Source: Selenomonas sp.
GTDB taxonomy: Bacteria > Bacillota_C > Negativicutes > Selenomonadales > Selenomonadaceae
NCBI RefSeq assembly: GCF_024693525.1
Contig: NZ_JAILKR010000035.1
Coordinates: forward strand, 1 to 10,561
Direction of reading: 5' to 3'
DNA: 10,561 nucleotides
A program made the translations under genes and the position numbers. This document shows positions 6,791-10,561 of this stretch, piece by piece; the first letter of the stretch is position 1, and the number at the start of each line of letters is the position of its first letter. Below the pieces are notes generated by a model, which ran no database searches, was not told where the DNA came from, and saw nothing but the letters and a program-made list of their open reading frames with translations.

Positions 6791-6902
6791 TATCAGATAC
6801 AAGCATAAAACAAAAGGAGATCCCACTTACAAAACCAGAGCAGGATTTTCTCCATTTGGATAGAATATGAACATTAGTTATTCATTACAGCGCAATGTTC
6901 GA

Positions 6903-6908
6903 GGGAGG
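6903..6908 (+). promoter_or_regulatory. Ribosome binding site that fixes the MBOAT start
   Basis: GGGAGG is 7 bases before the GTG at 6916. It supports a start 7 codons downstream of the first in-frame ATG. Confidence 0.75.
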
Positions 6909-6915
6909 AAGCGCC

Positions 6916-8310
6916 GTGGTTTTTTCTTCTAATATATTTTTGTTTGTGTTTCTACCAATGGTACTCCTGCTTTACTACAATCCATTTAGCAAAAGCCGGA
7001 AATTCCGCAACGTATTATTGCTCATCGCCAGCCTTTTTTTTTACGGTTGGGGTGAGCCTTTCTTTATCTGGTTGATGATTCTTTCCATCATCACCGGCTG
7101 GCAGATTGGCCTCCGGATAACAGCTGCAACTACACCGCAAAAACGCAAGCTATGGCTTTCTCTCGGAGCAGCCTTTCATTTGGGTATGCTGTTCGTCTTT
7201 AAGTATCTTACTTTTACGGCCAATCAGCTTGGGCTTTTACTGCAAAAAGATTTTTCTGCACTCCAGCTGGCCCTGCCCATCGGGATTTCTTTCTTTACCT
7301 TCCAGCTGCTTTCCTACCTTCTCGATATCTATTATGGAAAAGCGCCAGCCCAGCGAAACGTACTGCATGTCGGCCTCTACATTGCTTTGTTTCCTCAGCT
7401 CATTGCCGGCCCCATTGTGCGTTATGCTGATATCGAGCGGGAAATCCTTCACCGTCAAGAAACCCGGCAGGATTTCACCGCTGGCATGATACGCTTCAGT
7501 TACGGCTTGGCCAAAAAAGTACTATTGGCCAATTACCTGGCGGTCATTGCTATGAACAGTCAATTTCTAGCCGGCCAAGAGCCCCTTTCTGTTGCAGCAG
7601 CTTGGCTGGGGGCTATCGCTTATACGCTTCAGATTTATTTTGACTTCTCCGGCTACTCGGACATGGCCATTGGATTGGGGCAAATGTTTGGATTCCATTT
7701 CCGGGAAAATTTCAACTACCCCTATATTTCCCGCAGTGTAACGGAATTTTGGCGTCGCTGGCATATCTCACTATCCTCTTGGTTCCGGGATTATGTCTAT
7801 ATTCCTCTCGGAGGCAACAGGTGTAGCCGTAGCCGTATGGCCTTAAACCTCTTGATCGTTTGGTCACTGACAGGCTTCTGGCATGGCGCCAACTGGACAT
7901 TTTTGCTTTGGGGACTGATTTATTTTCTATTGCTGATCCTGGAAAAGTTTACCAACTTTATTGACCATCTTGGTATTTTCAGTCACCTTTACACCTTGCT
8001 GGCTGTCATTACAGCCTGGGTAGTGTTCCAGTTTCCTGATCTCGAACAAAGTCTATCTTATCTTAGCATGATGTGGGGACAAGCTGGTAATCCGCTCTTT
8101 GATGAACTGGCAGCGCATTTCCTCACCAGCGGCTGGCTGATTTGGCTTATGGGGTTGGCTTTTTCTCTCCCCCTCTATCCATGGATTGCTGCGCACTGGC
8201 GTTGTTGGCACTCAGTTGCTGAGCCTTGTCTGGCAGCGATTTTGTTCGTACTTTCCCTTATTGCTACTGTAGCAGGGAATTATAATCCCTTTATCTATTT
8301 TAACTTTTGA
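6916..8310 (+). CDS. Membrane-bound O-acyltransferase (MBOAT, AlgI/DltB-like)
   Basis: A 464-residue polytopic membrane protein of the MBOAT family, which moves acyl (usually acetyl) groups across or at the membrane onto extracytoplasmic polysaccharides or teichoic acids. The N-terminus MVFSSNIFLFVFLPMVLLLYY is typical of AlgI-like members. The core shows FDFSGYSDMAIGLG, NYPYISRSVTEFWRRWHISLSSW with His283, YIPLGGNR, and LTGFWHGANWTFLLWG with the invariant catalytic His323. I chose the GTG at 6916 because GGGAGG (6903-6908) is 7 bases upstream; the longer reading from ATG at 6895 would translate through this ribosome binding site. It is 9 bp from the DHHW gene, which is its probable partner. 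The acceptor glycan is unknown. Base composition appears more AT-rich than in ileS, by eye only. Confidence 0.93.
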   Translation: MVFSSNIFLFVFLPMVLLLYYNPFSKSRKFRNVLLLIASLFFYGWGEPFFIWLMILSIITGWQIGLRITAATTPQKRKLWLSLGAAFHLGMLFVFKYLTFTANQLGLLLQKDFSALQLALPIGISFFTFQLLSYLLDIYYGKAPAQRNVLHVGLYIALFPQLIAGPIVRYADIEREILHRQETRQDFTAGMIRFSYGLAKKVLLANYLAVIAMNSQFLAGQEPLSVAAAWLGAIAYTLQIYFDFSGYSDMAIGLGQMFGFHFRENFNYPYISRSVTEFWRRWHISLSSWFRDYVYIPLGGNRCSRSRMALNLLIVWSLTGFWHGANWTFLLWGLIYFLLLILEKFTNFIDHLGIFSHLYTLLAVITAWVVFQFPDLEQSLSYLSMMWGQAGNPLFDELAAHFLTSGWLIWLMGLAFSLPLYPWIAAHWRCWHSVAEPCLAAILFVLSLIATVAGNYNPFIYFNF

Positions 8311-8319
8311 GGTACAGCT

Positions 8320-9657
8320 ATGAGCATTCGTGACTATATAATGCGGTTTTGCGCCGGACTTTTGGTGCTGGCTTTTTTCCTGATATTTATCCGCTGGTTT
8401 ACCGTGGTGATTCTGATTGACAACTGTAAATGGGACAATACGCTGACCCGGTTGGTACTTTGGGATAATTGGCGTCTTCCCGAGCGTATCCATCCTCGGG
8501 AAAAAGATATTGACTGGGCTAGTCTCTATCCTTTTCCCGAACCGCAGCCGGAACGTTCCTTATTGGCAGAAGTGCGTCAACAAGAAAACAAACTGCGTGA
8601 AGAACAGGAGCGTATCGCCAACTGGAGCGAAACGTATTTCCCCGGTTACACGAACATCGTGGAGACTGGCCGGCGCTATGACCAGTTCATTGGCTGGAAT
8701 ATCCGCCCCTTAACCATCGGTAGTGTCCAGGTATTGTCAGATGGCTGGCTCTTTTTCCCCACCCTGCCCTTCGACCTTCAGGAATACATAGACGAAACGG
8801 CTTCCCTGGCTGAATTTTGCCAGCAGCAAGGCACAAAATTCCTATTCGTCCCTAATCCGCCCGCCCTCGATCCAACCACAGATAGCGCATTCACCGGCCG
8901 GCTGGATTTCGGTCTACAAAAAAAAGATGCCATGCTGCAGGGATTGCAGGCGTGCGGGATCGCCACCCTCGACCTGTATCCGTACATGCACAGAGATTTT
9001 CCTGACACACCCTACCATCAGTTATTCTTCCGGTCAGACCATCATTGGCTGCCCACCACCGGGTTCTGGGCAGCTACACATATTGCCCAATGGCTGGAAG
9101 ATGCAGGTGATATCTCTTTGCCCAAAGATTGCCTGCGTTTGACAAACTACCGGCAAGAACACTATCCAGCTTATTTCCTGGGCAGTCAAGGCAAACGAAT
9201 GACCACTGTTCTGACTCAACCTGACAATTTTATGCTTCTTTATCCCGAGTTCCCCACCTGCCTGCATTATGAAATTCCCGGACTGGGCATTGATACTTAT
9301 GGAGATTTTTCTATTACCTACGACATGCACGAGCTGGAGCGAAAAGATTTTTACGGTTCCAATCCCTATGCAGCTTACAACCATGCAGATTGCTCCCTGA
9401 TTCGTATAGAAAACTTTGCCCCTGAAGCTGCCAATATAAAACTTCTTGTAATCAAGGACTCCTTTGCCAACAGTGTAGCTCCCTTTCTAGCTCTCTGCGT
9501 AAAGCAGATGGATATTATCGATCCCCGCTGGTTCAAAGGCAGCATCCACAGTTATATCCATAAAACTCAGCCTGACTTCGTATTGGTTCTTCACACCATC
9601 GATTTGGATTATCCACTGGAGCGCGATTCCCATCAGGACAACTATGATTTTCGTTGA
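8320..9657 (+). CDS. DHHW-family (AlgX/AlgJ-like SGNH) protein, partner of the MBOAT
   Basis: A 445-residue membrane-anchored protein: one transmembrane segment at about residues 9-33, a Glu/Arg/Gln-rich, probably coiled-coil stretch near 81-104, then an extracytoplasmic SGNH-like domain. Landmarks are SDGWLFF (140-146), the signature DHHW at 240-243 (Asp240 and His242 as the D-x-H of the catalytic triad), and VIKDSFANS with candidate nucleophile Ser381, written KDS instead of GDS as in many DHHW proteins. By analogy to AlgJ/AlgX and PatB, it would receive acyl groups exported by the MBOAT and place them on a glycan. The start is ATG with GAGG 7 bases upstream, 9 bp after the MBOAT stop, so translation is probably coupled. 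The substrate is not predictable from sequence. Confidence 0.88.
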   Translation: MSIRDYIMRFCAGLLVLAFFLIFIRWFTVVILIDNCKWDNTLTRLVLWDNWRLPERIHPREKDIDWASLYPFPEPQPERSLLAEVRQQENKLREEQERIANWSETYFPGYTNIVETGRRYDQFIGWNIRPLTIGSVQVLSDGWLFFPTLPFDLQEYIDETASLAEFCQQQGTKFLFVPNPPALDPTTDSAFTGRLDFGLQKKDAMLQGLQACGIATLDLYPYMHRDFPDTPYHQLFFRSDHHWLPTTGFWAATHIAQWLEDAGDISLPKDCLRLTNYRQEHYPAYFLGSQGKRMTTVLTQPDNFMLLYPEFPTCLHYEIPGLGIDTYGDFSITYDMHELERKDFYGSNPYAAYNHADCSLIRIENFAPEAANIKLLVIKDSFANSVAPFLALCVKQMDIIDPRWFKGSIHSYIHKTQPDFVLVLHTIDLDYPLERDSHQDNYDFR

Positions 9658-9678: not shown

Positions 9679-9708
9679 TTGACGCCTTCCCCCGCCATCT
9701 ACTATAAT
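9679..9708 (+). promoter_or_regulatory. Strong promoter of the SpeD-like gene
   Basis: TTGACG (9679-9684) and a perfect TATAAT (9703-9708) lie 18 bases apart. The predicted transcript starts near 9715 and has a leader of about 50 bases, in which TAGGAT (9710-9715) and ATCCTA (9731-9736) could form a weak 6-bp stem. The gene is thus separately transcribed from the acylation genes. Confidence 0.75.
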
Positions 9709-9762
9709 ATAGGATATGTGTTTTATCGTCATCCTAGCATATAAAAAGGAGCATAAAAAATA

Positions 9763-10221
9763 GTGAAAATATTAGCCCGTCATTTAACGGCCGATTTATT
9801 CAACTGCAAAAACAATAAACTCACTGACATAGAACTTATCCAGGAGAATATGAAAGCTGCACTTGAACGCATCGGACACCAGCTTGTCAAGTTGGATGTC
9901 CAGCAGCTTGCCGATGATCATTATGTCATCTTTGCCTTACTGGCCGACGGCCATCTTTCCCTTCACATCTATATGGATCTGAAGTACGTTGCCCTCGATG
10001 TGTTCCTCTGTCACGAGGATGCTGAGCCGGATATGGTAGCTCAAGAGATCCGCAACTTCTTCAAGCCGGACAAGACCAAGACGACAGTCCTCAAGCGCGG
10101 CAACTTCGGCGTCGCTAAGGAAATCAAACCGAAAGTCACGACGAAGGTTGCACCACTGCGCAAGATCCACAATACTGGCGCGAAAGTCATCCGTGCCTTG
10201 GCACGTCGCAATCATCAGTAA
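9763..10221 (+). CDS. SpeD-like protein (S-adenosylmethionine decarboxylase homologue) lacking the pyruvoyl serine
   Basis: A 152-residue protein whose first about 105 residues align with the small bacterial AdoMet decarboxylase proenzyme: ARHLTADLFNC (5-15), DGHLSLH (62-68), YVALDVFLC (75-83). SpeD normally cleaves itself between Glu62 and Ser63 of ESH (Thermotoga numbering), and Ser63 becomes the catalytic pyruvoyl group. Here the sequence is Asp62-Gly63-His64, the codon being GGC, and the Ser55 position is Val. His68 and Cys83 are kept. The protein therefore cannot form a pyruvoyl cofactor and should not be annotated as an active decarboxylase. Residues 107-152 form a Lys/Arg-rich tail absent from normal SpeD. 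The start is GTG, with AAGGAG about 11 bases upstream, a somewhat long spacing. It has its own promoter and terminator and no spermidine synthase gene beside it. The true role is unknown. Confidence 0.82.
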   Translation: MKILARHLTADLFNCKNNKLTDIELIQENMKAALERIGHQLVKLDVQQLADDHYVIFALLADGHLSLHIYMDLKYVALDVFLCHEDAEPDMVAQEIRNFFKPDKTKTTVLKRGNFGVAKEIKPKVTTKVAPLRKIHNTGAKVIRALARRNHQ

Positions 10222-10224
10222 TGA

Positions 10225-10254
10225 AAAAAAGCTCTCCTGCGGGAGGGCTTTTTT
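10225..10254 (+). terminator. Intrinsic terminator of the SpeD-like gene
   Basis: GCTCTCC (10231-10237) pairs with GGAGGGC (10242-10248) around a TGCG loop, flanked by AAAAAA on the left and TTTTTT on the right, so it can work in both directions. It begins 3 bases after the stop codon. Confidence 0.92.
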
Positions 10255-10469: not shown

Positions 10470-10474
10470 AGTAA

Positions 10475-10561
10475 AGTTAAGCCCTCGACTTATTAGTATT
10501 GGTCCGCTCCATGCCTTACGGCACTTCCACTCCCAACCTATCTACCTTGTCTTCTTCAAGG
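10475..10561 (-). rRNA. 23S ribosomal RNA, 3' end (partial)
   Basis: On the minus strand the sequence GGTAGATAGGTTGGGAGTGG, then GCCGTAAGGC, ACTAATAAGTCGAGGGCTTAAC is the conserved 3' terminus of bacterial 23S rRNA. The rest of the gene lies beyond the right edge. The 3' end is placed near 10475 from the CTTAAC that pairs with the 5' GGTTAAG of the mature molecule; a few bases either way are possible. Confidence 0.93.

Follow-up and report, generated by a model that had tools for sequence, protein, structure and literature searches.

A SpeD-fold protein of Selenomonas without its pyruvoyl-forming serine belongs to a basic-tailed family spread through the Negativicutes

The window, which is the whole 10,561-nucleotide stretch of DNA analysed here, from a Selenomonas ruminantium-like genome, carries near its right end a short gene whose product has the fold of the AdoMet decarboxylase SpeD. 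The gene and the elements recognised around and within it are as follows.

9679 to 9708, + strand: sigma-70-type promoter, TTGACG-18-TATAAT (consensus match at 11 of 12 positions)
9746 to 9751, + strand: ribosome-binding site AAGGAG, read in the sequence
9763 to 10221, + strand: coding sequence of 152 residues with a GTG start and an intact frame, for a predicted SpeD-fold pseudoenzyme with a basic C-terminal extension
9763 to 10104, + strand: SpeD core domain, residues 1–114
9946 to 9951, + strand: codons of Asp62-Gly63, where the Glu62-Ser63 self-cleavage dyad would be, placed by alignment
10066 to 10218, + strand: basic C-terminal stretch, residues 102–152 (14 K/R, 2 D/E), from conservation and net charge
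10132 to 10155, + strand: predicted extra beta strand, residues 124–131 (AlphaFold2 model)
10174 to 10212, + strand: predicted basic helix, residues 138–150 (AlphaFold2 model of low confidence here, block pLDDT 64–69)
10232 to 10245, + strand: terminator-like hairpin followed by a T tract, from a pattern scan

The intact frame, near-consensus promoter and terminator named in the first-pass annotation are all present at the locus, promoter and terminator being consensus matches only. Across the class, tailed SpeD genes have a promoter of their own more often than chance: of 41 family loci, 30 have an exact TATAAT within 110 bp upstream, where shuffled sequence gives 6.3 on average, and 21 have TATAAT plus a −35 element within the same distance, against 0.9. 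Three relatives from S. ruminantium (L142, L143 and L144) share with the window (9700 to 9800) an almost identical promoter-to-start leader and first 38 coding bases, although three of the pairs are strongly diverged at synonymous sites over the gene. Either recent exchange or conservation of the leader may account for this; as the preceding gene's end is similarly close, the identity is taken as shared history and not as a proven element.

Upstream on the same strand lie two open frames (6895 to 8310 and 8320 to 9657), which we take to encode an MBOAT acyltransferase-like protein and an AlgX/AlgJ-like partner of polysaccharide O-acetylation. No speE or other polyamine gene was recognised by eye beside the gene within the window. 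On the − strand, a T-box leader (501 to 738; RF00230, 106.6 bits) would control a gene at or past the left end of the window, and the 3' end of a 23S rRNA gene (10473 to 10561) faces the open frame. In several Selenomonas and Mitsuokella assemblies the contigs stop about 190–615 bp past the gene, as would be expected if an rRNA operon follows.

The protein matches Pfam PF02675 (AdoMet_dc) over the whole profile with 83.9 bits (E 1.2e-23), and aligns without gaps to T. maritima SpeD (1tlu/1tmi/1vr7) over residues 1–115 (E about 2e-12), with 30 of 115 residues identical; structure comparison of the model finds the SpeD fold unchanged. The residue-for-residue match to the Thermotoga-type enzyme at the active site, as first described, therefore holds. 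In this register the changes from T. maritima to the window protein are S55 to V, S61 to A, E62 to D, S63 to G and W70 to Y, with H64, H68 and C83 retained, which bears out the earlier reading of Asp62-Gly63, Val55, His68 and Cys83. Thus, the domain, the fold, His68 and Cys83 of a SpeD are all present, and the Ser or Cys at position 63 is not. The protein scores 74.4 bits against the NCBI SpeD model TIGR03330, just below its cut-off of 75.65. Because position 63 holds neither Ser nor Cys, the chain should not cut itself and should stay whole, no pyruvoyl cofactor should arise, and no decarboxylation should follow; on the strength of the sequence and the known chemistry, the protein is predicted to be incapable of forming pyruvoyl or of decarboxylating. 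The non-processing S63A mutant of T. maritima SpeD (PDB 1tmi) is a laboratory change at the same position; that of the window protein is natural, fixed and accompanied by a tail.

A search over 5.8 billion proteins returned 201 homologues, of which the 120 nearest were listed. Together with the window protein, all 121 of these sequences carry Gly63, and none of the 120 has Ser63, the finding that would have spoken for an error or a recent mutation. Within the same set His64 is kept in 118, Tyr70 in 121 and Cys83 in 120. Whole-gene dN/dS in seven pairs of near relatives, which are not mutually independent, is 0.05–0.13; it is 0.08–0.17 over residues 2–95 and 0–0.04 over residues 96–152 in the five of seven pairs where it could be computed. 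A sequencing error or a decaying gene is refuted for the window by the constancy of Gly63 and these low ratios, and we give it virtually no credence: nothing at the locus favours it. Elsewhere in the Selenomonadaceae, two genomes (G029 and G098) each hold two weaker matches to the window protein, possibly split or frameshifted copies. With Gly63 throughout the nearest relatives and low dN/dS, the first-pass suggestion of a pseudoenzyme under selection for a non-decarboxylase role gains support, and we regard a selected, non-catalytic role as close to certain. This pseudoenzyme step is well supported; it is the step to binding, taken up below, that we infer.

Pseudoenzymes of this fold could serve a catalytic paralogue, and the number of SpeD genes per genome bears on this. 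Counts for the genus come from 22 genomes other than the window's own assembly, 15 of them at least 90% complete. Each of the 22 has a single PF02675 match, so that neither the second, Ser63-containing speD nor the true SpeD partner for a heteromer that had been proposed was found there. Among 167 genomes of Selenomonadaceae outside the genus, 92 have at least two matches, 71 have one and 4 have none, many single-match genomes being incomplete; more than one match occurs in 18 of 20 hand-picked genomes, and a single one in 43 of the 49 f2 genomes having any. All ten second genes read encode a SpeD of the E. coli type whose HLDKSH dyad is intact, and six of them adjoin an open frame that we take to be arginine decarboxylase-like. 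A prozyme-like role for the window protein, beside an active SpeD of its own cell, could draw on the genomes with two genes, and is very improbable given the single matches in all 22 genus genomes, in the 71 and in the f2 set; for the window's genus those 22 refute it, barring an unrecognised AdoMet decarboxylase. A search with PF01536, the eukaryotic-type enzyme, matched 0 of 22 genus genomes, its control having matched nowhere either.

Spermidine synthase gave a similar picture at the level of the class. Among 60 chosen class genomes, 21 have no SpeE match, and all 21 keep a relative of the window protein and one PF02675 match; residue 63 is Gly in all eight that were read. The tailed family thus persists without a visible second AdoMet decarboxylase or spermidine synthase, which argues against a role tied to either, and its function is very probably independent of SpeD/SpeE polyamine synthesis. 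Yet speE is present in the window's own genus, above cut-off in 19 of 22 genomes (nspC in 20 of 22), and a link with an aminopropyltransferase could hold for the genus alone. The nearest genome has speE and nspC in one cluster, on another contig than the tailed protein and with no SpeD there (L260, G001:C30:47500-56500, where the two stand side by side); the remaining open frames of the cluster presumably encode arginine decarboxylase, a carboxyspermidine-dehydrogenase-like protein, agmatine deiminase and carbamoylputrescine amidohydrolase. As judged from these genes, spermidine may be made without AdoMet decarboxylase in the genus. Dehydrogenase/decarboxylase routes to spermidine have been described (PMC11999265). 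The retention of speE in 19 of 22 genomes whose only AdoMet decarboxylase-family gene found is the dead one makes the source of decarboxylated AdoMet, or the substrate of SpeE, puzzling.

Relatives of the window protein occur at E ≤ 0.001 in 358 of 380 Negativicutes genomes, where a weak match need not be a tailed one. Of 66 loci read, most of them outside the Selenomonadaceae, 65 encode tailed proteins and one an ordinary SpeD, and in the deep branches sampled the SpeD core is followed by the same appendage, a RGDFG..DMKP-type stretch and then a basic tail. A profile of 29 members matched 3732 proteins; the 120 listed are Sporomusa-like where named, 95 with Ser63 and 25 with Gly63. Two long open frames (835 and 843 residues) in two genomes, considered as fusions with partner domains, proved to be plain genes of about 150 residues.

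The history of position 63 was traced on an 84-row tree that was rooted on two true SpeDs and from which column 63 and the adjoining columns had been left out. Ser63 is found in the outgroup and most Sporomusa-like rows; Gly63 in the Selenomonadaceae and their nearest relatives (f10, f11 and f16), in f8, in f2, f3 and f5 with f4, and in one f30 row; and Ala, Cys, Thr, Phe or His in rows of f32, f33, f35, f18 and f20. Parsimony counts nine changes with three states, or seven when Ser is set against the rest, at least five of them forced by starred branches, the exact number of losses being uncertain because the tree is a quick one built on few columns. It looks as if the ancestor had Ser63 and the residue disappeared several times over, the tail staying in place. 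In f35 (L126, L131, L132, L139 and L140) Phe, Cys or Thr stands at position 63 and Cys83 is missing; the members with Cys63 might in principle still process. Four 16-kb regions from this group have 36–38% GC.

Around the former active site, conservation is uneven over the 82 family rows. Trp at position 70 occurs in none of them and Tyr or Phe in 80, including all 24 Ser63 rows, and of 47 Gly63 rows only 6 retain F49; both residues presumably stack on AdoMet in SpeD. Cys83 is kept in 15 of 24 Ser63 rows, in 40 of 47 Gly63 rows and in none of the 11 others, nine of which have Phe, and His7 is lost in 27 of 82. By contrast, H64, H68, D79, D11 and C15 are conserved at 96–100% over the 82 rows, a pattern that hints that the old active-site side may still do something. 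Mainly because of these five residues, two further readings stay in play. The core could bind, and leave undecarboxylated, AdoMet, a polyamine or some other small amine, the tail relaying the event by binding nucleic acid or protein. Such a ligand sensor, which we rate as unlikely but worth serious attention, would account for the retention of the five residues through frequent loss of Ser63 and for the unchanged fold, and would suit a class rich in polyamine chemistry, including polyaminated peptidoglycan (PMC10628300). The absence of W70 and the rarity of F49 speak against it, as does the persistence of the family in the 21 genomes with no SpeE match and one SpeD-family match, and the AdoMet or polyamine sensor of the first-pass annotation is weakened to that extent. 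Alternatively, His64, His68, Cys15 and the Asp residues could run a different, pyruvoyl-free reaction, for example a transfer step decorating peptidoglycan with polyamine. The same five residues and the confinement of the family, as far as seen, to a class having members with polyaminated peptidoglycan (PMC10628300) favour this, but the constant set stops at those five, Cys83 and His7 being lost as often as given above. A strongly basic tail would moreover be odd for such an enzyme, and the peptidoglycan link is one of co-distribution only; a new enzymatic activity is therefore improbable.

The most constant part of the protein is its tail. Residues ~116–152 reach past the end of an ordinary SpeD by about 37 residues, and mean column conservation, computed on 40 representatives at 85% identity of the 121 nearest listed sequences, is 0.85 over residues 96–152 against 0.62 over residues 1–95. 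The net charge of the tail ranges from +5 to +17 with a median of +12, and the tail is basic in all 82 rows across the class. It follows a hinge that is typically RGDFG..DMKP and in the window RGNFG..KEIKP, so that the window protein fits the family pattern of SpeD core, hinge and basic tail; R112, G113, D114, F115, D120, M121 and P123 are invariant in all 120 listed of the 3732 profile matches. The modelled extension of a Ser63 relative has the same extra strand, with a helix at 137–148. Conservation and modelling together show that selection holds the folded core and a class-specific basic extension made of hinge, strand and helix. Searched alone, the tail had no match among PDB sequences at E values to 10 and no significant one in Pfam, where the tail of a relative gave Phage_Hfq at E 0.18, a chance-level score. 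A likeness to ribosomal proteins returned by Foldseek (TM 0.24–0.26 to the model, rmsd 15–18 Å) was discarded as evidence; in VIA-align, structural comparison barely probes the part beyond residue 134.

To place the tail more widely, 398 genomes from the phylum, including 14 Negativicutes, were compared. The matches listed from outside the class end at model position 113–126, about the end of an ordinary SpeD, and four further ones reach 128 or 140, only across an in-frame stop; a basic tail was found in none of the matches listed outside the class. Since these stop where an ordinary SpeD does, the tail looks like a mark of the Negativicutes.

Forty-one neighbourhoods across the class were viewed, with gene names assigned from sequence. 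A divergent ctsR, in most cases accompanied by mcsA, mcsB and clpC, adjoins the gene at eight of ten Sporomusa-like and four of six f34/f35 loci; the gene lies beside recD2 and comF at all six f2 loci; and a 23S gene stands downstream, facing it, in the window, at seven Sporomusa-like loci and at one f33 locus. These shared positions support the orthology of Ser63 and non-Ser63 members. The flanking genes vary among most genera in the 10 Selenomonadaceae loci viewed, where no operon partner was found. The ctsR-divergent position is one argument for a protein partner or adaptor, in which the tail would dock on a protein, such as a protease adaptor close to ClpC or an allosteric subunit of a PLP-dependent lysine/ornithine decarboxylase; another is the precedent of dead AdoMet decarboxylase domains that act as partners (the prozyme of T. 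brucei, PMC5201418; human spermine synthase, PMC11203672). CtsR control, suggested by the synteny, was rejected, no full CtsR box being present at any of the 47 loci, out of 49, for which the start was located, and single half sites at 4. Because neighbours differ in most Selenomonadaceae genera viewed, the ctsR–clpC synteny may be only an ancestral position. With both points against it, we consider a protein-docking tail distinctly unlikely.

Based on these data, a simple model would suggest that a dead scaffold displays a binding appendage. A protein kept under strong selection without its catalytic residue and with a positive tail probably has a different job, and it is best read as a dead SpeD scaffold showing basic arms, perhaps a nucleic-acid binder. 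SpeD is dimeric, and the core of the tailed protein would form a rigid, probably dimeric scaffold displaying two basic arms. The arms would bind a polyanion, nucleic acid being the simplest candidate. Membranes, acidic proteins and polyphosphate are also ligands of basic helices. The nucleic-acid binder that the first-pass annotation derived from the basic tail is the favoured reading, with the tail basic in every row across the class, and it falls short in that the tail matches no known binding family; binding of nucleic acid through the tail has, in our estimate, a little under an even chance. RNA or a ribosome-related target would be likelier than DNA, a refinement that we put forward as doubtful. 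The tailed protein would be a steadily made housekeeping factor. That a SpeD fold characteristic of the Negativicutes has been turned into a stand-alone RNA/DNA-binding housekeeping factor, with the serine lost independently and the tail constant, is a tentative reading of the whole, and we know of no SpeD-fold protein with such a role. If the tail does bind RNA or DNA, the SpeD fold would have been put to a new use.

The comparison with described systems sets the family apart. Class 1B AdoMet decarboxylase (SpeD/SpeH, T. maritima TM0655; PF02675, TIGR03330) shares the fold with the window protein and differs from it in the latter's Gly63, Tyr70, basic tail of ~37 residues and lack of an adjoining polyamine gene. 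SpeD homologues that abandoned AdoMet decarboxylation are described in PMC10407285 as pyruvoyl ornithine/arginine decarboxylases; these keep the pyruvoyl cofactor, unlike a protein without Ser63, the residue to which PMC10407285 ascribes pyruvoyl formation. The same source names fusions with a degraded second domain, and its main text contains no word starting with Selenomon, Negativicutes, Sporomus, Bacillota or Veillonell. The T. brucei prozyme, as portrayed in PMC5201418, is likewise a catalytically dead AdoMet decarboxylase-family protein kept for a non-catalytic role, but it activates an active paralogue, which the single matches in 22 of 22 genomes leave unseen in the window's genus. In human spermine synthase the N-terminal domain, AdoMet decarboxylase-like by structure comparison (3c6k, 3c6m), is described as a dimerisation domain (PMC11203672) and is fused to an aminopropyltransferase, whereas the window protein stands alone and relatives of it occur in the 21 of 60 chosen genomes that lack a SpeE match. 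Known dead relatives of AdoMet decarboxylase act in or beside an active enzyme, and the tailed family differs in this.

For annotation, the consequences are direct. Several of the Gly63 homologues listed carry the name adenosylmethionine decarboxylase, and of three Gly63 relatives scored with TIGR03330 two pass the cut-off (L082, 105.6; L012, 79.8) and one fails (L112, 55.6). The label is wrong where Ser63 has been lost, and with most genomes of the class carrying the gene it misleads models of polyamine metabolism; Negativicutes are common in the rumen, mouth and gut. Repeated loss of a catalytic residue with retention of a new appendage also makes the family a natural series, on which the emergence of a new function can be tested directly. 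Neither a report of the tailed family nor a transposon study of V. parvula was found in a search of mostly open-access literature. In V. parvula, Vpar_0438, named s-adenosylmethionine decarboxylase proenzyme, which may be the orthologue, is reported to be 18-fold down in coaggregates with S. gordonii (PMC6529473).
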